NCBI RefSeq assembly: GCF_964204645.1
Contig: NC_134032.1
Span: forward strand, 3,126,916-3,190,915
Source of the DNA: Tubulanus polymorphus
Taxonomy: Eukaryota; Nemertea; Palaeonemertea; Tubulaniformes; Tubulanidae
Length of the DNA stretch: 64,000 nucleotides
Reading direction: 5' to 3'
The notes beneath the pieces were generated by a model that worked only from the letters and a program-made list of their open reading frames with translations, was not told the DNA's origin and did no database searches. The position numbers and the translations under genes were made by a program. Below are positions 38,978 through 55,269 of this stretch, piece by piece. Every line of letters begins with the position of its first letter. Within the stretch, counting starts at the first letter, position 1.

Positions 38978-41900
38978 TTAACGTAAGCGTTTAGTTTTTG
39001 CTCGTATGGATTTCATATCGATAGTCAGTATTGTGTAAAGTAGGGGATTGAGGGACGAGTTGATCGGTAGGAAAAGAACCGCCAGCCAAGCCGCCACCTG
39101 ATTCGGTATTTCTACCCGTAATACCGCGCAAAACTGAACGATAATTAACGGCATCCAGCAAAATAAATTACAAAGATTTATCACCAAACTTCTACGTGCT
39201 AAAATCAGTTCGGTAGGGTCAATTCTACCCGATCCAGACCTGCTTCCAGAGACGAGTCTGTACATTTGCGCATAAGTCGTCATTATCATAGCGAGTATGA
39301 AGGTGTTGAATACGGCAAAAATTGCGAAGGAATATTGCCAGGCGTTGACGTCAATTGATATTAAATTCATAGGTAAACAAACTCCAGTTTTTCCGTAGAA
39401 TTTAATACCGAAATAAGATAATTCTGACAACGGCAATATGGAGATTGTACTTATAGTAACCCAACACACGCCACAAATAATGGACACGTATCTCGGTGAT
39501 GTAATCGGGCTTCCAGAAAATGGATTAACGATATTTGAAAATCTATGACGTGTTAGAAAGAATAGAAACGTCAACGAGCCTTCGCAAGAAATAGTGACCG
39601 TAACTCCAGCGAAACTGCACAATGAACTGTCCGTCCAAGTTTCAGAATTCAGGAAATAAACTCCTTTAAAAACGTAATCCGCGCCCGCGATCGAAAACAA
39701 ATAAATCGACATGAGAAAATCACAAGCTGCGATATTAATAATTAGGATGTCGGAAGATGTGTTGCGCTTTTCGGAGGATGAAAGTCGAATTGATCGAAGA
39801 CGAAATAAAATGACAATTGTGTTCGCGAAGAAACTGAACGCGGCGATGACCCAGATGATAGCTCTGAGGACTGTGTTACCCATCAGATCAGAACAAGAGG
39901 AAAACTGATCAGCTTTAGGAAGGCACCGGTCGACATTCGGAGCCATGCAGCAAAATTTGTAAGCGTCAGACGATAGAGATACTAGCGATGTCAGATTGAT
40001 GAAAACTTCTCTTTCTGTGGAAATGAATTGAGAATTGTTGGTTAAATCGAGAATTCTAAGTTTATTTAATCCTGAAAAAGCATATCGTGAAATATGATGG
40101 ATTCTGTTGCTGCTGATATTCAACGACTGTAATGTAGATAATCCTCTAAACACATTTCTACCAAGCAGCAATAGCGAAAGCCCTTGAAGGTTCAGAATTT
40201 GTAATGACATTAAATCTCGAAAGGTATTGTCGTCTAAATGGCGTAGTGGATTTGCAGTTATCAATAACTCTTTTAAATTATACAAACCGATGAATGTGTT
40301 TGTGGATAATGACGTTATGTTGTTGTATGTAAGATCTAATGTATGTAAATTATGCAGGTTTGTGAACGAGTTCGGTAAAATATGAGACAATTCGTTGGAA
40401 GAGATGTTGAGCATTCGAAGATAAACGAATGAAGAAAACGTCGATTCATTGAATCGAAATTCGTTTTTTGACAGAATTAAAACTCGAGTTGATTCCGAGA
40501 AAAGACCAGTAATATTTGTTAAACCGGCATTCGCGCAATCAATCAAATGACCTTGGCATCTACAGCCCATCTGACACGTGACGTTACAGAAAGCCTCGTC
40601 ATCAATTGTGAATTTACAATTTACGACACCATCACAAACTTCAGATTGTGGAATACATCGATTTTCGTGGCCACATTTAAACATTCCTGGACACGAAAAT
40701 GTCTCACAGTTTTGTTCATCTTCTGAATTAGGACAATCTGATTGACCATCACACACCTGTCTGATCGGTATACAGTACGATGCTGGACATTTTACAGTAT
40801 CAGCTGGGCATTCAAATTCTTCACATCTCAATACGTGCTCAAAATTTCTACAAACTGGGAAACCATTCGTCATTCTTTCTAGAATACATCTGTGACGTCT
40901 TGAATAGCAGTGAGGAGAATTGAAAGAACATCTTTGTTCATCTGATTCCGTACAGAGATTTGTGAAGTTAGTCGTGCAGTAGTTTTCATTATTGCACTGA
41001 ACAGTAGGATTCACTGTAATACTAGTTGTTGTTACTAATTCATCTTCTTCGAGGCTTCCACTACAATCCACGACACCATCCTGGTACAACTGAGAACTGA
41101 TACAGTCTCCACTGTTACACTGGAACCCCTGACACAATTCAGTAGTGCATCCCATTTCATCTGATCCGTCTTTACAATCAGTGACTCCATCACATCTGTT
41201 AGCCATACTGATACATTGACCACTTTTACAGCGAAATCGTTCAGACAAACACGGGGGATGAAAACAAGATTCCTCATCCGAACCATCCACACAATCTTGT
41301 ACGAAATCACAAAAACCACTTATTGATATCACCTGACCATCATCGCATTGAAACTGACTGTGTAGATTTATATCCGTACAATCGATTTCATCTTCACCGT
41401 GTTGACAGTCGTGTCTGGTATCACATACGCGATGGTTGCTGATACATCTTTGATCGTTACATTTAAACTGCCGCGATTTACAACCGCTTATAGAAGCTGA
41501 CTCGTCATCAGTTACATTGAACGAACACAAAACAGAATGCGCTGTATCTGTCGCATTATCAAAATATTTCATCATCCATTTAACTGATTGAATATAAGTT
41601 ATTTCATCTCTAGTGATTATTGGGTTTATAACTTGCAGTCTGTCATTAGACGTTATCGTTAGTACAGAGCCATATTGATGTTGATATTGAAATGCTGTTA
41701 TCAAATTTAAGATATCTTTTTCAGTATTACTGTTAATACTACCTACTTCGGCCCGGACGCCATTACACATCTCTGTCGCAGTTTTTATATCAAGACCTCG
41801 ATGTTTGTTCCATTGCGTCAGTATTTGATAGCATTGTCTGCCTATGCTTACCAAACCAATCGTACAGCTCGATTCATTGAAATCAATATCTTGAAATGTA

Positions 41901-44900
41901 TTTTCCAGTATTAGAAATGTGTCGTTTTTGGTTATATTTAACATTGTTGCTGTTCTATTTTCGTTATCAATCCTTTCCGATTCGCAAATAAAACTCGTAT
42001 GAACCTCTTCAATTTTGCAGGGGAATCGAACCCAGTTCGCTGATCCTCGTGGATTATTCAGTATCATCGCCGTGCACGGCATATTGACGTCATTTATCGG
42101 TTGTTTTCTGAGAGGAGATATCAATCCTTGAACAACTTCTGGTATCGTGTCGTTATTTGTAGGTTTATACCACTCTGTGTAGCTCAATGGTTTCCCATCA
42201 GTCCACGTGTAGTAACCAAAAGTAGGCTAAAAGTTTAAGTTGCAAATTCATGATTAAAACATCAAAATGGTATATAAAATTCTTTTAACGAGATGGATTT
42301 TAGAAATTAAGAATTTTACCTGCATTTTTAATCCAATCATCATTATGAGCGCTTTCTGTGAATAGGCATTTAGAAGAAGTTCTGTTGCGAATAATCTTTT
42401 GATGGAAATCATTTCCTGTTCTGAGTTGATACTGAGTAGATGTCCCGCATACTTCTGTCTACAGTATATTTCAGCGTTCTCCCAATTCAGACGTTCATCT
42501 CTTATGTATTTTACGCATGAAATTCCCGAATCTAGAAATCCCGATTTACAGACATTTTCAAACTGTTTAACCGGTAACGACTGTTCTAATGTGTATTGTA
42601 TTTGAAATGTAGGGATGAAATGTTTCACCTCAAACCACAGGTTGTCATCTCTTAAACTATAAAACACAAGTCCCGTTATCGCGTTATTGTCACATATTTT
42701 ATGCTCATGTGTGATTCTTCTAGTATCCGATTCATATATCGATTGTTTGTAGATTATCGGATCATTGTCTCTTGCACCCGATTTCGTGCACAGTACCCTG
42801 CCTATGTATTTGATTAGAAACCGGTGGTAGGAAAATTTGCCCCGCCTGACCACTACAGGATAGTTATAATATAGCGGTTGATGTTGATACTCAGATGATC
42901 CCGGATAATTTGGTGACTGCAACAACCCGCATTCATCTTCGAATACGCTCCCATGCACATACGCTTCTATAACGGCAGATTTCAATTTTTGACATTTACT
43001 CCGAAGTTCAACCATTAAATAATAATTCCAGAATAAACTCGCGGTTCGCATTTTCACAGTGTTTAATACCAGGCTGTTATTGAGCGACTGACTAATCAAG
43101 CTAACGTACGTACCACATGACCCGAATGGTATAGCACCCTGAAAACATCGGTCGATTTGATATTCGTGTTCTGATAATATGTAAATGTTTCTCAAAGGTA
43201 GGCGTCGGTTTTCGGGTGTTATCACGAGACAGTGTGACGTCATATCGACCTGCTGTTCTCCCTCCCGGAGGATGTACCCGTCACAGTCGGTAGGACGAAA
43301 TCTGAGATATGATTCTTTTTCAACGGTCAACTGGTCATTCCACTTATACGCGTATGCTGCTACAGTTACCGACCAACCGGATGTAATCAGACTGACGACG
43401 TTACGGTCGTACGGGTCGTATAAACGAGGACAATACGGACCGTATCGTCTAGCCGTGAAATTACCACCGTCGAATATGTAAAATCCAGCTCGCTCGCAGT
43501 TCTCTGATAAAACTGTTAGTCCCATATTCTCTTCATAAATGTCAACTTTCCATTTAAACTCGTATCTAGTGATGCGATAATTTACCGATACTTTTTTTTG
43601 TTTCGGAAACAGTGAGTTTGGCGTCAAAAACGGCAACTGGTTCACCTAGAGTTCGTCAATAATAAGTATATCAGACAGATTTTTGATAATATATGTTATT
43701 TCGGTACGGGGTAACATAATTACAGAGGTTATACTCACCCGACGGTTGTTGACCTTGATATCGTCTATCGAAATAGATTCCATTTTATAGCTTATTTCAA
43801 ATCTTACATCATCGTGAACTGTTGTTTTTAAAACGCACAGTATGACGAGAAAGCCGTCAGATTTGACACTCAGTGATTGCAGGTAGTTGTGACCGAGTAA
43901 AACATCAGTTCCTACAACGCGTAACCCTTCTAGTTTATATACACCAATGACGTCACCGGATGTGACGAGATCACGTGTCCAGTTAAAGACGACGTACTGT
44001 AACACCTGTCCTGTGATAGACCAGCAGTGTAAGTGTTTTGATCGAGTTGTTACGTGTAAACTGTTGTCATCGGGAATGAGCACTCCCGACTCGTTGTTAG
44101 AGATCTGAATCAACCGATTAGCGACGTTCCAATCTGATATTTTATACAATTGGACTAAAAGCAGTGATTGCACAGTTGTCTTCCGTAAAACGAATACAGC
44201 TTTGTTTGTTTTAGAATAAAATGATGAAGGTGGATGTCCAGATTGTTGTGGTATTAAAGCGAAAGGATCACTGCTGGTGTTCCATCCGTCGTGGAGTTTA
44301 ATGGACACCGATGATGATTCCCCAAATCGGTAGAATGTGAAATCGATATCAATTAACGTAAGATTCATCGCATAACCTCGCGGCATCCCGCTCCACTCAA
44401 CAAACAACTTGCAATTACGTAATTTATGAATCGCGAATTTATAACCCCGCTCAGCTTTTAGCCGCTCCAATTTTAAATCGAATCTTGAACCGTCGTGGAA
44501 AATATTTATTTGACTTCGCCCATAACGATAAATGACATAAACGCGACTACCTCGCGCTCCAGCGACTTTACTCCTAAACATCAACGAGATCGAATCGTCA
44601 CGGCGGATTTCATGTTTTCCATCACCGCACAATCTGTTATCGGACTCACTGACGAGAAGGTAGTTATCACCACAGAATATTGACAGCTCGATATCATGGT
44701 AAACTTGGACGTGAAAAGTCCCCGGTAAAGAGCTGTTGATGAACCACCGACATTCAACACCGCGCGATAACGAAGGGTAATTCGGCGAAACGATGTAACC
44801 GGACGTAGAATCTAACGGGTACCACGTATTGTTACAAGACGAACTTACCGTCACAGACGATTCCTCGATAGAGTCTGCTGTGCGATCAGCGCGCGCGATG

Positions 44901-44974
44901 CGAACTTGACAGACGATCAGCGACGCTATAAACAGCGCTCTCAGTCGCCGCTCCATACCGAACAACATCGACAC
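38978..44974 (-). CDS. Adhesion-like GPCR: CUB, C-type lectin, LDLa, LRR and 7TM (GRL101-like)
   Basis: Three exons on the minus strand: 44974-43739, 43645-42320 and 42226-38978. All junctions are phase 0, giving about 1,936 residues. Exon 1 has a signal peptide (from MERRLRALFIASLIVCQVRI at 44956, or the earlier ATG at 44974) and a CUB domain (SGYIVSPNYPSLSRGVECRW). Exon 2 has a second CUB-like region and the start of a C-type lectin fold (WENAEIYCRQKYAGHLLSIN). Exon 3 completes that lectin fold and adds a degenerate second one. Five to six LDLa repeats (CDGVTDCKDGSDEMGC type), an LRR N-cap and about seven LRRs follow. A rhodopsin-type 7TM core ends in NPLLY. The DRY position reads TRHRF. 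LDLa-LRR-7TM is the order in the Lymnaea receptor GRL101 and relaxin-type LGRs; the CUB and lectin extension is additional. The ligand is unknown; membrane location is clear. Confidence 0.9.
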
Positions 44975-45017
44975 GATACGAATTATGCTCGGCTGTCCAC
45001 AGATTTTGAAGTTCTGT

Positions 45018-45023
45018 TTATAA
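45018..45023 (-). promoter_or_regulatory. TATA box of the GPCR gene
   Basis: TATAAA on the minus strand, 44 bp upstream of the first ATG, in a suitable position for a short 5' UTR. Confidence 0.45.
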
Positions 45024-45187
45024 CTGAACTTTAGATCACCTGTTTAGAACTTTACATGACTGCAGAAATAAAATGTTTGAACCACTCAGCAATTTAAGGA
45101 TACGAATAAACTTTTCAGTCCATTATATTTTGCCAAAGGCGATTTTGGTATCATTTACTCGTGTAGTCATTATTTCACGTTTTCCCT

Positions 45188-45530
<343 letters not shown>

Positions 45531-45601
45531 TGTATATCGAGCACACCAATCTGACTATATTCACGCCTGACAACTACGAAACTAGCAAACTTACTTAAAT
45601 C

Positions 45602-46708
45602 TATGGTGGCTGATAAGGGCCATAGCGTAAAATTCCTGGTATGTAAATGAGGGCGCCAGAACGCCAGAACGCCAAAACGAAAAAAAACGTCCAATTTTCT
45701 CTGAAAGTTCGTTTTGGCGCGCCAAAACAAAGAAAATTCCGTTTTGGCGCCCCCGCCAAAACGAACTTTCATTTTGGCGCCCCCGCCAAAACGAACTTTC
45801 GTTTTGGCGCCCCCGCCAAAACAACGAAAAACGTCGAAATTTCTCTAAAAGTTCGTTTTGGCGCGCCAAAACAAAGAAAATTCCGTTTTGGCGCCCCCGC
45901 CAAAACGAACTTTCATTTTGGCGCCCCCGCCAAAACGAACTTTCGTTTTGGCGCCCCCGCCAAAACAACGAAAAACGTCGAAATTTCTCTAAAAGTTCGT
46001 TTTGGCGCGCCAAAACGGAGAATATTCCGTTTTGGCGCCCCCGCCAAAACGAACTTTCATTTTGGCGCCCCCGCCAAAACGAACTTTCATTTTGGCGCCC
46101 CCGCCAAAACGAACTTTCGTTTTGGCGCCCCCGCCAAAACAACGAAAAACGTCGAAATTTCTCTAAAAGTTCGTTTTGGCGCGCCAAAACAAAGAAAATT
46201 CCGTTTTGGCGCCCCCGCCAAAACGAACTTTCATTTTGGCGCCCCCGCCAAAACGAACTTTCGTTTTGGCGCCCCCGCCAAAACAACGAAAAACGTCGAA
46301 ATTTCTCTAAAAGTTCGTTTTGGCGCGCCAAAACAAAGAAAATTCCGTTTTGGCGCCCCCGCCAAAACGAACTTTCATTTTGGCGCCCCCGCCAAAACGA
46401 ACTTTCGTTTTGGCGCCCCCGCCAAAACAACGAAAAACGTCGAAATTTCTCTAAAAGTTCGTTTTGGCGCGCCAAAACGGAGAATATTCCGTTTTGGCGC
46501 CCCCGCCAAAACGAACTTTCATTTTGGCGCCCCCGCCAAAACGAACTTTCGTTTTGGCGCCCCCGCCAAAACAACGAAAAACGTCGAAATTTCTCTAAAA
46601 GTTCGTTTTGGCGCGCCAAAACAAAGAAAATTCCGTTTTGGCGCCCCCGCCAAAACGAACTTTCATTTTGGCGCCCCCGCTAAAACGAACTTTCGTTTTG
46701 GCGCCCCG
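45602..46708 (+). repeat. Left terminal inverted array of hairpin monomers
   Basis: About 105 bp of unique terminus is followed by a higher-order repeat of 144 bp. Each unit consists of 30-bp palindromic monomers (GTTTTGGCG CCCC CGCCAAAAC) plus a spacer with ACGAAAAACGTCGAAATTTC. Spacer starts at 45821, 45965, 46139, 46283, 46427 and 46571 show 144-bp steps, with one 174-bp step from an extra monomer. Because 144 and 30 are multiples of three, long open frames arise on both strands; they are not genes. Confidence 0.95.
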
Positions 46709-46787
46709 GAAACGTGTCTACTCCAGATGCTGACATACAAATTATGTACATACGCATACGTACTCGTGCACGACCGCTTAATTATAA

Positions 46788-49078
46788 TGGACACCGTTCG
46801 GACTTGTATCCTTTTACGTAATAAAGACCAAGTTGCTCAACGGTCGATTTTGCTGTTGATCTTGTTGATGATCTTAACAGATTCCTCTAGTTGATGATAC
46901 TGTTAGGAAGCTTTTTGCAGATGGGTACACAAATGCAGAAATGAGGATTGCCATGTTATCTAACTTCGGAATAACTATTAGGTACGTATATATAAATTCC
47001 ATGGCCTACATCAAGATGGTCTAAGAATAGATTTTAATTGTCTGCAGCTACGTATGGGCACTGCCATTTTTATTCAATATTACTCCTTATAATGATGTGA
47101 TATAGTAGTTTAGTTCACAAACCGTCTTGTTTATTTTAAACTTTCAGTGAACGCCACCTCAAACGACAATTGAATAGGTTAGGTTTGAAAAGAAACAACA
47201 ATTACGTTCTCAATGACGTAACCGCTGCAGTCGAGGAAAGTAATCCGAATTTTTGAAGTGATGCTTATATCTGATAGAAATTGAAAATGTCTTTTGGGTT
47301 TAAGATTATGTTCTCTGCATTATTACAGGTTGAGCTTGCTGGCAGCGGATGTTGCATGGGATATCGTGCTATGTCACAACGTCTCCGTCAACGCTACGGA
47401 ATAAGAGCCCCTAGGTAAGATGTATGATCGGGTGGCTACCTACACGGTTAATTCCTGACATGATAAATGAGGGCGCTAAAGTACCAAAACGCCATAACTA
47501 AAAAAACTTAATTTCTCGAAAAATATTTTTTGGCCAAATTGAAGAATTGTCAGTTTTGTTACTCCTGACAAAAAGAACTTTCGAATCGGCCAGCATATGT
47601 ATAAATGTGTATTTGATTGATGTAAGACCTTTAAGATGAGATCTGGATCACTTCACTCATGTGTTATATGATTGTTTACTTCTAGGTCTCTAGTTTCCAA
47701 TATCCTTCAGAATTTAGACTTCGAAGGAGTACAGAATAGGACCCATGGAGTTTTAAGACGACGACGTTACTTTAACAAGGGTCCCAATTATCTTGTCCAT
47801 CTCGATGGTTATGACAAGCTCAAGCCTTTTGGTTTCCCGATTCATGGGTGTATAGATGGGTAAACATAATATATAATTGATATATCCTAAAAGATATTAT
47901 TTCCACCTATCAACAGCAGTTGCTATAAGTTCAGAATTTGGTTTGTCGAACATGTTCATAAACACAGTCTATATTTAAAAGATTTTCCCGACGAATCCTT
48001 TGGTTAAGAGTTGGAAATACTAATAATGACCCAGAGGTGGTTGCGTGGTACTTTTTAGATTTCGTTCAGGACATTGAAGGTAGATAGAATTGTCATATAT
48101 AAATACACAATGTGCCGAAATTATGCCTGGGAAAATTTATCTGTTATCAATCGTCGATTAAGATAATACTCTGACCGTCATCTTTATATCATCATTCAGC
48201 AGTTCCTCGCTGCATCCGTATGGACGCTGGAACCGAAAATGGCAGAATTGCAGCGATTCAGAAGGCCTTTAGAGCAGAATATGACGACGAAACGTGCGTT
48301 CTTGTGGGTAGATCTACGAGTAATCAGGTTCGTGGTGTCATTAATATGGGTAGATTTGGACAATCCCCATTTCTGCGCTAGAACCAACTTAAGATACTTC
48401 AAAACTCACCAATTATTTTATTTTCTTTGTTTTAAGCGCATTGAACGATGGTGGCGAAGTCTTCGAAACGAAGTTGTTCAGTTTTGGATGAACGTATTTA
48501 AAGATATGGAGGAAAATGGAAGTCTATCTACCGCGGACGTTGTGCACATGTAGGTTAAATACCCGCCTTTAAAGCGCGTGGCGATTTTTTGTGATCCACG
48601 TAGTAATTTCCCTTTCTCCAATATTTTTCAGTCAAACCTTAAGATACTGTTTTTTTGATTTGATAAATGCCGATCTTCAGGATTTCGTGCAGGAGTGGAA
48701 TACACATGCCATCAGGCCTCAACGAAATGTGGATGTTCCACCCGGAAAACCTGATCTATTATACTTCTCGCCGGAATATTACGGTACGAAATACGCTGTA
48801 TAAAAATGAGCATAGGTTTCTAAGTTTACGATGTTTTTATCACTTCTTGATAATACGAAATAATATTTTCAGGCACGATAGACTACAAATTTCCAGTGGA
48901 CGCTGGACTACTTCCGCAAATTCGAGAGGAATTTTGTAGTAAGCCGAATGAATCGAGAGGCTGTGATCCGGACTTTTCAGCGATGTGTGATCTTAAAACG
49001 AGGCAGGGACAACAATCAAGACCGACATCAACCCCAGAAGCCGCTGCTTTGTATGACTGGCTATTAACTCAATTCTGA
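46788..49078 (+). CDS. DDE integrase-core (transposase-like) protein
   Basis: Exons: tentative first exon 46788-46818, then 46891-46981, 47148-47229, 47329-47414, 47686-47859, 47982-48079, 48200-48327, 48437-48549, 48632-48783 and 48873-49078. All are in phase, giving about 386 residues. The start and the donor after 47229 (GCA|GTCGAG) are the weakest calls. The N-terminal part is helix-turn-helix-like (FADGYTNAEMRIAM, ERHLKRQLNRLGL). The catalytic core is retroviral-integrase type: the first Asp in NYLVHLDGYDKLKPFG, the second in IRMDAGTENG, and Glu in NQRIERWW, with 36 residues between the last two, matching D-x35-E. All three acidic residues are present. Proteins of this 'integrase core domain' type are multi-copy in fish, cnidarian and mollusc genomes as far as I recall. 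Its position between inverted termini makes it the likely transposase. Confidence 0.85.
47458..47600 (+). repeat. Decayed copy of the transposon terminus inside an integrase intron
   Basis: CATGATAAATGAGGGCGCTA, then CAAAACGCC and TTTTTGGC, follow the order of the outer array start (GTAAATGAGGGCGCC...), but strongly diverged. It lies between the exons ending at 47414 and starting at 47686. Confidence 0.6.
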
Positions 49079-49507
49079 GAGCATACATGTTAGAATCATT
49101 TTTATACGTATCTGTCCTGCACGGTTTATGTGTTGTCTGTTCATGATGTATTTCGAAGATTCAAATATATCTATGATACACGTTACGCGTTGAAAAGAAT
49201 ATGATTGTAATTTTTCATGGATTCATGCGACTGTTTGGGCTTAGTAATACATCATACTAACACTACCCATGTTTTAATTCGCTATCCAACCCCATCTCAA
49301 GTAGGTGTCTCAGAAATAGAATACGCGTGCCATCAATTTACATGGAGAATTATCTGCGAAAGCGTACTCCAGTATCCGCTATTCTCAAAACGCTTCAGAA
49401 TAAATTTGCGTATGGTTCAAAAAGATGTATTTTTGATTAAATTTATTTTGAGAAAGTTCTATGAAGCGGTTGTTTAAAAAGTGGTCTTATGGACAAGTCA
49501 CATATCT

Positions 49508-49790
49508 TTCATCCTCGCATGCCAGGGGTCTGGTATCGCACCCCGAACTCGTTTCCACCACCCCCTGGCCTCACGACGCGTGATTTCATTACTGGTTGAA
49601 ATACCTCCTTGTACGTTGATTGGTCCATTTAACGGGAAAATCAACAGAAGCCTATAATATCGTTTGCTTAAAGCGCTGTGATTGGTACGACCGGATTCTG
49701 GTCGGCTAGTAACGACTCCAACGACTCGCGAGGTCAAGGGGTTCGGGGAACACGGCTTTAGCGTAGTGAATTCGATTCCCACGACAGGTG
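49508..49790. repeat. CTTGCCAGG-family MITE copy inside the transposon
   Basis: Begins CATCCTCGCATGCCAGGGGT and ends with the GGCTTTAGCGTAGTGAATTC region, like the element at 37511-37797. It occupies the gap downstream of the integrase gene. Confidence 0.6.
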
Positions 49791-50683
49791 AAGATGCATA
49801 CATTGGAACCTCGTTACAACGAACCTCTGGGGACCAGAAAATATTGTTCATTTTAACAGATATTTCGTCATATCCAGTGTGAAATTAATCAAATTGTCTA
49901 ATGTGGGACACAATCTTGTATTTGTTATGTCCGATGAATCGTTGTATCCCAGTTAGTTATAACGAGTTCCACTGTATCTCTATATGAATGTGCAATTTTG
50001 ACAGTATATAATTTAATCGTGTTCGAATACGTGCCAATGACACTTTCGTACTACGATATCATTTGCAGCTCGAGTGAAAGTGAGACACCATGAAAGAACG
50101 AAAACGCAATGAAGTGAAGATATTTGAATATTTTAATCGAAGTATCAAAGTTTCTCTTAAAAGCCTTAAAACATTATCTACGTTTTAATACCGTGTTGAT
50201 ACAATATATCAATATGTACTTAAAGATGATTGTCTTACAATTTCGAGACAAAACATAACTTGACAGCAGAGAAGTGGCACCCCCAAATCGCCCTGTTTTC
50301 AATACAAACAAAAAACGTATTTGGTCATGATTGATTCCCTAATTTGAAACGACAAATATAAGGAGCAAGTTTAACAGCTCTCGGTAAGGTTTGACTCGAG
50401 AGTTAAGTCGGTTTTTTTCAATATTTCCAATGCTTTAACTCTAGAGTCAAACTTAACCGAGAACTGTAGAACCTGGTCAAAATGCACTGCATGAATAATT
50501 ACTTCTATCATCAAAAAGATCGTCACTAAGTAATTCTATGATAAAAGAAACGACATCAGGGCTGGCAATATTAAAAATAAACACACCACTTTTGGCCTAA
50601 ACAAAAGAACTTAAACACGTTTTGATCCAACTTTGAAAATATGAAACTTACGTGGATTACGTCATTTCGTTTCTAGAATAATT
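49791..50683. other. Spacer between the convergent integrase and HECT genes
   Basis: A hairpin with ~33-bp arms (50372-50405 and 50433-50467; GGTTTGACTCGAGAGTTAA and inverse) lies between the two 3' ends. No gene is seen. Confidence 0.5.
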
Positions 50684-53285
50684 TTATACGACGTCCATAA
50701 CCCAAACATTGCTCTGGAGAATATTATCGAATTCTTGTTTCAGTTCGACGTATTCGTCATATGTTTCTGGTAACTCCAATATCTGGGCACATGTTCGAGC
50801 AACTGGAGCTCGTTGGAGACCGTCTACCTTAGTAAAGGTCACGTCAATCTTTTGGCAGTTACAGATGTCAGAACCAGTACAATAGCGGAGGAACTTAGAC
50901 AACATGCTTTCATCCAATGATCTGACATATCTCTTCAGTAACGTAGCAACATTTGACTGAGGAGCTGACAAAACGTTTGGAAAAGAAAGTAATTCTACCA
51001 CTTTGCGACAGGAGGGTTTAAGATCCGTACAAAGATCGAGGTACTGTTTATATGATATTGTTACATATTTCTGTATCATAGGTTTTATACAATCAACTAT
51101 AAATCTCGGCTTTTGCACCAATTCCTGGTGACTAATTTCCCGAATCAACATGGAGAAGTTCTCCTTCGTAGGAAGTTTCCGACATTCATATCCCCCCAGT
51201 ATGTCTATTATCTCTTCGACGTCATTTGCTTCATCATCGAAATTAGCCAATGCGCGTCGAAATACCAGCTCCTCAGACGGAGAAACATATTTCAGGAATG
51301 ATTCGACCAAGTCTACGCTATCATCCTGCTGGAAGAACAATTCGGAAACAAATGGCTGCGCGAGGAATATTGGGAAATATGATGTTTCCTGAAATCCTTT
51401 ACTGATGATGCGTCCTACAGCCTCCCATTTCTCTGTGCCATAATCATGGCGTATGAGAGGGATCATCTGACTACTACCCGTCATACATTGCTTTCTAAAT
51501 TCTGACCAAAATTCAGTGAGACACTCTCGAAAGACACCGTGTCCTTCTCCGGCTTCAACATTTCCATTAGGGAGTATCATTCGAGCATTTATTATTTTCC
51601 CCATCACCGATGCATCACAAAAAGCGTTTATCATATCTTCGACCATGGCTGTTCTGCGAACCAGAAGGTTGTATTCTTCCCGTTCAATGCGATTTATCTC
51701 TTCTTGTGATAACTCGCCACTCGTCTGTACTCTGAATTGAATTGTAGGCGTATCAGGCTGTATCAATTCGAAATCATTAAAGTTGATATCTGCTATACCA
51801 TCACGGGAATGTGTATCATTTGCACCCGTATGTATGCCAACAGCACCGGTAGGCACATAACCAGACTGAATCCCGGCCGCAAATGGAGTTGAAAGTGTAT
51901 GGGCAGATTGGGTATGCGTAGTTAAAACGATAGGTTGAATATCACTACTAGCCGAAATTGTAGATGAGGCTGCTGGCGTAAACGACAATGCCGGTTGCAT
52001 CAACGAAAACATAGGTAAAGTTGACTCAGAAATCGGTGGCTGGTGGGTATTAGCAAGAAAGGATGACATGGATGGCAAGGATGTTTCATCATCACTATCG
52101 TCAACTAAAACAGTTGTGTGAAGATAGAGCCTAATAGGGTTTGTTTTATGTGCTGCGATGTAGGCCTCTAGACCAAAAACATTACCACACTCAAGATAAT
52201 CACATAACCGATTACCATTGAAATTTGCTAAGTAATAGCTCACATCATTGATTTTTAGGTTCATCGCATTCGATTTGCCGTCTGGAAAAAATAGGTTTAA
52301 GAACTCCATGGTTAAGGCCGACAAGTTCATTTCTTTTTTCAGGTCCAAAGTGTGTGTCCCCCCACCCTTGCTTGCAGTAACTAGTACAAAGGTCCCGCTT
52401 TTGATGGCGTGTTTCCAACCTAGTTTTATTCGTCGTGTATCTTTCTCTGCATTTTTTGTCGTCATTGATTTCTTGGTGCCGGCCTTCCGTTTTTGAAATT
52501 GCGTTCTCAACCTGCACAAAACACTAGATGATCCTGAAAATGAAATAATAAAGGAAAGTGTTATATATTTCAAGTAAACAATTTACAAATTTGTAAAAAG
52601 ATCCATTGATCGCAGACCCGTCGTAAGTCGAATCGCAAGGATAGAACAAGTTCTATTCCAGCGATGAGTTATGCGTCAAATGACCTTTGGACTCGGCGAT
52701 GATTGAATCGTTGTCGATCTGACTGTGACAAACGAATCGCCAATCGGCGGTCACGTGTTTACTACCGCTGTTTTTACGACGAGATGGTCGTCGTAAGTCG
52801 ACCTCAGCTTAGCTTAATCACGAGAAATAGGCACAAGCCTGCATAACCTCTCTAAAGTATAACCCTCTGATAGCACAATCTCATGGACAGAATTGAATTA
52901 GCGTAACGGTCAGTGACAACGGTCATGAAAGTAGGAATTAAGCACGTGATTTATCTTAAAACTCAAATTATTACCTGCACTAGACACATTTTCATCTTCT
53001 TTAGGCTGAGAATTTACTATCCTACACCTATTCCTTAGCCGGACTCTATCCCCGATAGCTGTAACTCCTGCTGCTTCAAAATCACTATCTGTCATGGTCG
53101 TGACGTCACTAACACCTATCTGGATGAGAAATTAAAATATGATACATTTTCAGAAGTTATGGCCCTATAGCATTACCAATCGGGGCAAGTCTGTGTATAC
53201 ATAAAGTATTGAAACACGGTACCTTATTTTCGAGAAACTTTGCAATGTATTGGCCTAATCCCAATTCTAGGAGTATGTTGTCCAT
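50684..53285 (-). CDS. SAM-domain HECT-type E3 ubiquitin ligase-like protein
   Basis: Minus-strand exons 53285-53223, 53119-52975 and 52533-50684, in phase, encode 685 residues. An upstream non-coding exon is possible because a good acceptor (TTTACAG) precedes the ATG. Residues 1-~60 form a SAM domain (LLELGLGQYIAKFLENK, MTDSDFEAAGVTAIGDRVRL). A basic linker follows, then a G2E3-like accessory domain (SGTFVLVTASKGGGTHTLDL ... LFFPDGKS), a Ser/Thr-rich low-complexity stretch, and a HECT domain. The HECT C-lobe carries the expected catalytic Cys in ARTCAQILELP and ends in WVMDVV. HECT enzymes pass ubiquitin through that Cys to substrates. HECT domain length (~330 residues) is normal to slightly short. 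Multi-copy SAM or G2E3-like HECT genes in animal genomes are often transposon-borne; that is recollection, not shown here. Confidence 0.85.
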
Positions 53286-53984
53286 CTGTAAAGAAGACAT
53301 TTACGAATTAACGCCATTGAATGATTATAATTCATTAGTTTTCACTAATGCAGACCGAGCAAAATAATCGTCGCTTACAATGATTAGGCAGTACGAGAGA
53401 AACGGCTCACGTCGAAAACTTAGAATACTACCAGTACGTGTTATATTGCCTGCGCATACCAGAGAACGACATCGGTTTTTTTAATATGTTTTCAGCGGCC
53501 GAAAATCAATCGATTTTTAAAATATATTGGCATATTAAAGAACAAAGTTTATGAATAGGCCTATGTGAGCTAAGCAATGCGAGGCAATGTATAGGATTTA
53601 AATGATACCAGGGGCTGATCCAGCATTTTTTAAGGAGTGGGGGTCGAGGGGGTACGGTGGTGCTCTGCTGGTCATCCCGAGAAATCTTAAAAACTTAGTC
53701 CCATTTTCATGAATTGTAAGCGTTTTTAGGCGCTACTTGATCATCTCATACATTTAAGATGTAGGCCTAACATGTCTACTTTGAAAAGTAGTTTTCCAAG
53801 TGGGAGGGGTTCTCGAGGACCCAAAGAAAACCCCTGCATTTAACCCTGAATAGGCTACATACCTGTTCGTTAGTCCGTTAATGTATACACCACCACCATC
53901 GACAACGATATGTATTATCACGTATACCTAGATCCGACTCGTAACAACAAAATCGAAGGGAGACGAATCGGATTTTCAAAGAAA
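53286..53984. other. 5' flank of the SAM-HECT gene inside the transposon
   Basis: Contains a possible MITE fragment at about 53610-53840 (GGGGCTGATCCAGC ... GGGGGTCGAGGGGG), similar in style to 61155-61450. The promoter cannot be placed. Confidence 0.4.
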
Positions 53985-55260
53985 GTTCGACGTTTTTCGC
54001 TGTTTGGCGGGGGGCGCAAAAACGAAAGTTCGTTTTGGCGGGGGCGCCAAAATGAAAGTTCGTTTTGGCGGGGGCGCCAAAACGGAATATTCTCCGTTTT
54101 GGCGCGCCAAAACGAACTTTTAGAGAAATTTCGACGTTTTTCGTTGTTTTAGCGGGGGCGCCAAAACGAAAGTTCGTTTTGGCGGGGGCGCCAAAATGAA
54201 AGTTCGTTTTGGCGGGGGCGCCAAAACGGAATATTCTCCGTTTTGGCGCGCCAAAACGAACTTTTAGAGAAATTTCGACGTTTTTCGTTGTTTTGGCGGG
54301 GGCGCCAAAACGAAAGTTCGTTTTGGCGGGGGCGCCAAAATGAAAGTTCGTTTTGGCGGGGGCGCCAAAACGGAATTTTCTTTGTTTTGGCGCGCCAAAA
54401 CGAACTTTTAGAGAAATTTCGACGTTTTTCGTTGTTTTGGCGGGGGCGCCAAAACGAAAGTTCGTTTTGGCGGGGGCGCCAAAATGAAAGTTCGTTTTGG
54501 CGGGGGCGCCAAAACGGAATATTCTCCGTTTTGGCGCGCCAAAACGAACTTTTAGAGAAATTTCGACGTTTTTCGTTGTTTTGGCGGGGGCGCCAAAACG
54601 AAAGTTCGTTTTGGCGGGGGCGCCAAAATGAAAGTTCGTTTTGGCGGGGGCGCCAAAATGAAAGTTCGTTTTGGCGGGGGCGCCAAAACGGAATATTCTC
54701 CGTTTTGGCGCGCCAAAACGAACTTTTAGAGAAATTTCGACGTTTTTCGTTGTTTTGGCGGGGGCGCCAAAACGAAAGTTCGTTTTGGCGGGTGCGCCAA
54801 AATGAAAGTTCGTTTTGGCGGGGGCGCCAAAACGGAATTTTCTTCGTTTTGGCGCGCCAAAACGAACTTTTAGAGAAATTTCGACGTTTTTCGTTGTTTT
54901 GGCGGGGGCGCCAAAACGAAAGTTCGTTTTGGCGGGGGCGCCAAAATGAAAGTTCGTTTTGGCGGGGGCGCCAAAACGGAATATTCTCCGTTTTGGCGCA
55001 CCAAAACGAACTTTTAGAGAAATTTCGACGTTTTTCGTTGTTTTGGCGGGGGCGCCAAAACGAAAGTTCGTTTTGGCGGGGGCGCCAAAATGAAAGTTCG
55101 TTTTGGCGGGGGCGCCAAAACGGAATTTTCTTTGTTTTGGCGCGCCAAAACGAACTTTCAGAGAAAATTGGACGTTTTTTTTCGTTTTGGCGTTCTGGCG
55201 TTCTGGCGCCCTCATTTACATACCAGGAATTTTACGCTATGGCCCTTATCAGCCACCATA
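53985..55260 (-). repeat. Right terminal inverted array of hairpin monomers
   Basis: This is the inverse of the left array with the same 144-bp higher-order unit and 30-bp palindromic monomers. It is slightly longer (about eight units) and has its own substitutions and one extra monomer near 54650. Outer terminus 55140-55260 matches 45602-45720 inverted. Confidence 0.95.
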
Positions 55261-55269
55261 TAAATCTTA

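Follow-up and report, generated by a model that had tools for sequence, protein, structure and literature searches.

Transposons whose products remove ubiquitin or DNA methylation are already on record in the literature. In the excerpts of the literature used here, TET-bearing IS3EU elements of fungi carry alpha-kinase and TET/JBP genes, and the author reads the TET/JBP genes as a means of escape from silencing (PMC12730594). Helitrons carry VTD or OTU deubiquitinases, and the excerpted text has the authors speculating that these protect transposition proteins or overcome a limit on transposon inheritance (PMC9741609). As for the superfamily itself, the excerpts describe complete IS3EU families as having TA..TA termini, usually 6-bp target-site duplications (TSDs) and no HHCC motif (PMC10045372), the IS3EU elements of rust fungi as having TAYGG..CCRTA termini and 6-bp TSDs (PMC12730594), and Intons as reportedly derived from IS3EU, with several conserved proteins (PMC3520738).

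The element described here, from the nemertean Tubulanus polymorphus, fits the IS3EU/GingerRoot superfamily by its ends and TSD. It resembles these elements in its TA..TA ends, its 6-bp TSD and the lack of an HHCC pattern before the catalytic core, and differs from them by a SAM-HECT gene, where the excerpted account of TET-bearing fungal IS3EU gives alpha-kinase and TET/JBP. With the deubiquitinase-bearing Helitrons it shares a transposon-encoded enzyme of the ubiquitin pathway; as far as the excerpts describe them, however, Helitrons are rolling-circle elements with a ubiquitin-removing domain inside the Helitron frame, whereas this element has a separate gene predicted to attach ubiquitin. 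The Intons (and Entons), unlike this element, are fungal and encode five to six proteins, and the excerpts on them name no HECT. Our literature search, which ran outside Repbase, the GingerRoot paper and most subscription journals, found HECT and IS3EU together in no paper; the papers retrieved for IS3EU and ubiquitin were unrelated as far as titles and abstract openings tell, and in the titles and abstract openings of the top-ranked results from the wider literature no HECT gene was reported in such a transposon. An earlier description of HECT in such elements is possible; the pairing across families and the apparent exchange of HECT domains described below appear to be new.

The window, i.e. 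the whole stretch of DNA analysed, is 64,000 bases long (C8:3126916-3190915), and the genome searched comprises 268 Mb in 77 contigs. Positions 45602-55260 of the window are a complete DNA transposon of 9,659 bp, with the following features:

45596..45601, no strand: left TSD TAAATC, present as a single copy in the empty sites L035, L036 and L037
45602..46710, plus strand: left inverted arm, with the terminus TATGGTGGCTGATAAGGGCC followed by tandem units of about 144 bp and TTTTGGCG..CGCCAAAA palindromes
46787..49078, plus strand: integrase/transposase gene, 386 aa, 10 predicted exons, D-D-36-E, PF24764 (rva_4)
46787-46817, 46891-46981, 47148-47229, 47329-47414 and 47686-47859, plus strand: predicted integrase exons 1-5
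47982-48079, 48200-48327, 48437-48549, 48632-48783 and 48873-49078, plus strand: predicted integrase exons 6-10
49079..50683, no strand: intergenic region, about 1.6 kb, separating the convergent genes
50684..53285, minus strand: SAM-HECT ligase gene, 685 aa, predicted exons 53285-53223, 53119-52975 and 52533-50684
Ligase residues 5-49: SAM (SAM_1, E 7.9e-7)
Ligase residues about 105-215: conserved GGG..LANF..LYLHT region, without a Pfam match at E 0.1
Ligase residues 594-671: HECT C-lobe (PF00632, E 1.1e-8, above the cut-off)
53966..55260, minus strand: right inverted arm, with a palindrome array like that of the left arm and the end CCTTATCAGCCACCATA
55261..55266, no strand: right TSD TAAATC

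The element starts with TATGGTGGCTGATAAGGG and finishes in the reverse complement of TATGGTGGCTGATAAGGG; over a longer stretch, TATGGTGGCTGATAAGGGCC lies at 45602 and its reverse complement ends at 55260. The arms, about 1.1 and 1.3 kb long, are palindrome-rich and consist mostly of tandem units, and their outer 509 bp are identical at 501 of 509 positions. The terminal motif is TATGG..CCATA, and the window and its copies carry TATGGTGG..CCACCATA, in agreement with both the TA..TA and the TAYGG..CCRTA pattern. A sister element, L021, shares 18 of its first 20 bases with the terminus in the window. The arms are also dense in TTTSSCGC sites, a motif that we take to be E2F-like: 36 and 39 lie in the two arms (45602-46710 and 53966-55260), against four in the window's other 54,341 bases. 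However, TTTSSCGC is absent from L021 despite a similar palindrome array, and control of the element by E2F is therefore not claimed. The array of L021 is likewise palindromic but differently worded, as one would expect from joint change of array and integrase.

The splice sites of both genes are predictions from consensus and phase, and both predicted frames are stop-free in the window. The integrase has the catalytic residues D137, D196 and E233, with 36 residues separating the last two, and matches PF24764 with E 1.1e-38 without the first exon and 1.2e-38 with it; D-D-36-E and PF24764 would both fit a transposase related to those of IS3/IS481. HTH_21 is significant in a related integrase, L029, but not in that of the window, and the one HHCC pattern tried is absent from integrase residues 1-130. 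In the ligase, the HECT cysteine is Cys651 in ARTCAQILELP. The Pfam match covers the C-lobe alone (the C-terminal part of the model), and the putative N-lobe aligns weakly to that of UBE3C. Similarity to UBE3C as a whole is weak (E 0.0064 with a single sequence, 0.00038 with a profile): the ligase has the C-lobe motif L-x-R-x-P-x-A-x-T-C in common with UBE3C (PDB 6k2c), and differs from it by an N-terminal SAM, the unnamed GGG region and its encoding in a mobile element. An AlphaFold model of the main ligase exon, made from the window sequence alone, was without confidence (mean pLDDT 35.8) and was set aside. The first-pass annotation had described inverted ends with a perfect 6-bp duplication, two convergent spliced genes, a complete D-D-x36-E integrase core, and a SAM and a HECT domain with its catalytic cysteine, and all of these features hold up, with TAAATC exact on both flanks.

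That annotation had also proposed to look for further copies by their outer ends, for empty sites with one TAAATC and for co-occurrence of the two genes, and each of these was found. The outer 199 bp of the element recur genome-wide. From 67 listed terminus matches, with partial tandem-unit matches left out and nine matches left unpaired, at least 29 copies could be paired, of which five measure 8.8-9.9 kb and the other 24 measure 0.5-3.6 kb; L014 (8,593 bp) is a further, sixth long copy. The 7.26-kb core has no match in the short copies L005 and L007, the other 22 short copies being classed by length. In four other copies (L009, L010, L012 and L013) this core is 99.6-99.8% identical to the window, and in L011 it is 99.6-99.9% identical, in two pieces. 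As in IS3EU, the TSDs are 6 bp long, and they are perfect in all eight copies with both ends read:

Long copies: window TAAATC; L009 ATATAT; L010 GAAACT; L011 TAAAAC; L014 CTTTTG
Short copies: L005 GTATTT; L007 CAAAAC
Sister family: L021 GGATTG

Alternative end pairings, for L007 from 1432 and for L021 from 5701, did not pass the TSD test and were discarded. A short copy at L007:1432-2834 is nested in the arm of a second copy and flanked by a duplicated CAAAAC, and thus the family inserts into itself.

When the flanks of seven insertions were joined and searched against the genome, matches across the junction were obtained for four (window, L010, L011 and L014), and none for L009, L021 and L005 among the matches listed. 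The empty sites of these four elements each hold a single target copy. Those of the window, three in number with the joined flanks unbroken, agree at 316/320, 317/320 and 307/320 aligned bases, and those of L011, L014 and L010 at 308/318, 301/306 and 258/262. These empty sites are paralogous sites and not alleles, because the element had inserted in other repeats. Every long A-family copy of which one or both termini were read, eight in all (window and L009-L015), has both genes, some of them broken; the integrase alignment shows one stop in L009 and one in L011. Of the A-family loci for which no terminus was read, L017, L020 and L028 have both genes, L016 has the integrase with ligase matches just beyond the stretch examined, L019 has a ligase remnant of 49 aa, and L018 has no ligase. 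As judged from these sequences, the SAM-HECT gene moves with the element; its place in the mobile unit, proposed in the first-pass annotation, is shown by the repeat copies, the perfect TSDs and the paralogous empty sites, and the recent activity suggested there is supported by the near identity of the core in four other copies. That annotation could not place the pair in a named superfamily, and IS3EU/GingerRoot is proposed here from the ends and the TSD length. We consider it highly probable that the element is a DNA transposon of the IS3EU/GingerRoot kind, recently active and apparently autonomous, with two genes of its own. Its near-identical copies and readable empty sites make the family suited to experiments.

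At least 56 integrase loci and at least 73 HECT loci were collected genome-wide; the grouping of matches into loci, the integrase groups A-D and the label of each HECT locus, host (17) or transposon-type (56), are manual assignments guided by how strong the matches were and how far they spread. A HECT match lies within 10 kb of 33 of the 56 collected integrase loci, and 32 of these 33 pairs are convergent. Random placement, repeated 2,000 times, never paired more than five loci or gave more than two convergent pairs; since near-identical copies are not independent, this should not be read as a p-value on independent events. By group, HECT-paired loci number 14/15 in A, 6/7 in B, 3/18 in C and 10/16 in D. 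Of the 14 A-family loci paired with a HECT match, 13 have 1,571-1,704 bp between the integrase and HECT matches, and the remaining one has 5,078 bp. Seven paired families for which sequence was read are clearly distinct (window, L021, L023, L025, L030, L032 and L033), and the pairing extends to integrases about 29-33% identical to that of the window. None of the 17 host-labelled HECT loci lies within 588 kb of an integrase.

The pairing is incomplete on both sides. No HECT match was found within 10 kb of 23 of the 56 collected integrase loci, and thus the ligase is not universal or some ligases are too diverged to detect; conversely, no integrase lies within 10 kb of 22 of the 56 transposon-type HECT loci. 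Three intact integrases are intronless (C3:15.41M, C4:17.38M and C7:11.94M), and genome-wide searches with four ligase queries and the Pfam model placed no HECT within 10 kb of them. One of them was read (L029:4431-5636, minus strand, 401 aa, stop-free), and no recognisable ligase was seen in its 8 kb. The intronless frames L029, C4:17.38M and C7:11.94M, of 401 and 400 aa, are 40% identical to the window integrase, and they perhaps represent a ligase-free lineage. Beyond this genome, no relatives were confirmed in viral contigs with the integrase alignment or the ligase exon as query. Prokaryote contigs gave one match, L034, a 3.8-kb contig from a sponge-symbiont MAG, which has integrase fragments 43% identical at 1991-2508 and no HECT recognised by eye in its frames, and which is probably sponge DNA.

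In the parts compared, the integrases of group B are 60-66% identical to those of the A family, those of C 37-40% and those of D 28-33%; a filter on local similarity was applied to all B rows and, with the exception of the window, to the A rows, making those identities upper estimates. In the dN/dS and distance comparisons, codons or residues likewise had to reach a sufficient local similarity, and thus dN is biased low and distances are underestimated. Between families, integrase dN is 0.25-0.29 (L021-L027) with dS saturated; between the window and L025, dN is 0.37 for the ligase (401 codons) and 0.25 for the integrase (248 codons), dS being saturated in both. Low dN with saturated dS points to constraint against amino-acid change in both genes, even with the filter. 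Within the near-identical set L009-L013, where changes are few, the integrase has a dN/dS of 0.17-0.18 and the ligase one of 0.28-0.47; older copies give 0.3-0.8, and the value of 1.97 for the L017 ligase comes from eight changes.

The HECT domains appear not to follow the integrases. Their C-lobes are 38-55% identical among the window, L025 and L030, 60% between L021 and L023, 45% between L032 and L033 and 24-34% between these two pairs, and identity between the first three and the other four is 19-28%, a split with local support 0.991. In the integrase tree, in contrast, L025 is nearest L023/L024 (73% identity, support 0.954), whereas its HECT C-lobe is 20% identical to that of the L023/L024 side and 55% to that of the window. 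The N-terminal half of the ligase is recognisable in the window, L025, L031 (the tail of the L022 element) and L023, and SAM in the first three. The simplest reading would be that the HECT domain was replaced on a common N-terminal half, or the reverse; the trees, of 9 and 12 rows without an outgroup, give no direction, and no N-terminal half was identified in L032/L033. A scan for TSD and terminus did not find the ends of the L023, L024, L025, L026, L029, L030, L032 and L033 elements, and the L025 ligase is therefore assigned to its integrase by position, lying 1.4 kb away in convergent orientation. That the catalytic domain appears to have been exchanged between families suggests that what selection has kept is HECT activity and not a HECT domain of one particular kind.

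The recurrence of the ligase beside related integrases suggests that it helps the movement or survival of the element. By analogy with the proposed family, the integrase would bind the palindrome arrays in the arms, cut the TATGG ends and join them to target DNA 6 bp apart. The mechanism that we prefer makes the ligase an accessory protein acting in trans: it would use SAM to multimerise or dock, bring in an E2 and hand ubiquitin via Cys651 to a protein that limits transposition. The first-pass annotation had likewise suggested host restriction factors or the integrase itself as what the ligase could modify. We see about an even chance that this target is a host silencing or repair factor; the integrase or the post-transfer complex is a less probable candidate. 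The host factor comes first because of how the fungal TET/JBP genes and the Helitron deubiquitinases have been read; together with the alpha-kinase genes of fungal IS3EU, these are the precedent for the explanation.

On a wider and tentative reading, which we favour rather less than an even chance would warrant, animal IS3EU/GingerRoot elements are basically a two-protein system, with a DDE integrase and a HECT ligase needed for spread and a HECT domain replaceable on a SAM-GGG targeting half. If this is true, many animal HECT genes annotated as host genes would be transposon proteins, and caution is in any case due, as HECT genes in animal genomes may be genes of mobile elements. A predicted ubiquitin ligase of its own, kept in distant families and apparently refitted with another catalytic domain, would be a testable handle on how a transposon acts on host protein control.

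One may argue that the ligase instead restrains its own element, marking the integrase for turnover or dismantling the strand-transfer complex and so limiting damage to the host. In bacteria a protein-unfolding machine takes apart the MuA complex, which offers a parallel, and the ligase is often encoded beside the integrase, as the element's own regulator would be. Conservation of the gene does not distinguish self-restraint from an effect on host proteins; we regard self-restraint as unlikely, if worth keeping in mind. DNA transposons also capture host genes, and the HECT gene could be such a captured passenger carried without a role, as might be argued from the 23 integrase loci without HECT and from the only moderately low ligase ratio in L009-L013. 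Against this, the convergent pairing persists to integrases about 29-33% identical, the L025 ligase keeps the SAM and Cys motifs at 48% identity to that of the window in alignment, and different HECT domains sit on a common N-terminal half, which makes a passenger improbable.

Polintons (Mavericks) have DNA polymerase and capsid genes and a larger size, whereas in this element of 9,659 bp the longest frame outside the two genes and the arrays has 128 aa. Derivation from a Polinton/Maverick, Ginger1/2 or a retroelement is very improbable, considering also the TA..TA ends, two genes in 9.7 kb and no HHCC pattern before the core. According to the excerpts, Polintons also have 6-bp TSDs and a related integrase, whereas the TSDs of Ginger1/2 are 4-5 bp (PMC10045372). 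Finally, the 22 transposon-type HECT loci without an integrase might suggest a host-family ligase beside which an integrase element repeatedly landed, but this can practically be dismissed, since the HECT gene lies inside the same ends and TSDs in the window, L009, L010, L011 and L014, the flanks of four insertions are joined elsewhere without the element, and 32 of 33 pairs are convergent.

Some observations concern the surroundings of the copies. At C12:6.50-6.55M, three A-family copies lie about 23 kb apart in a single orientation, perhaps through tandem segmental duplication. In the window, a frame containing a TA-type simple repeat (45201-45554) lies shortly before the insertion site. Three adjoining long frames occupy 38978-45043 on the minus strand, and the transposon begins about 560 bp beyond the outermost of them. 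Two of these frames have no Pfam match, and the third, of 1,082 aa, has LDL-receptor class A, leucine-rich and 7tm_1 domains and presumably resembles the snail GRL101 receptor.
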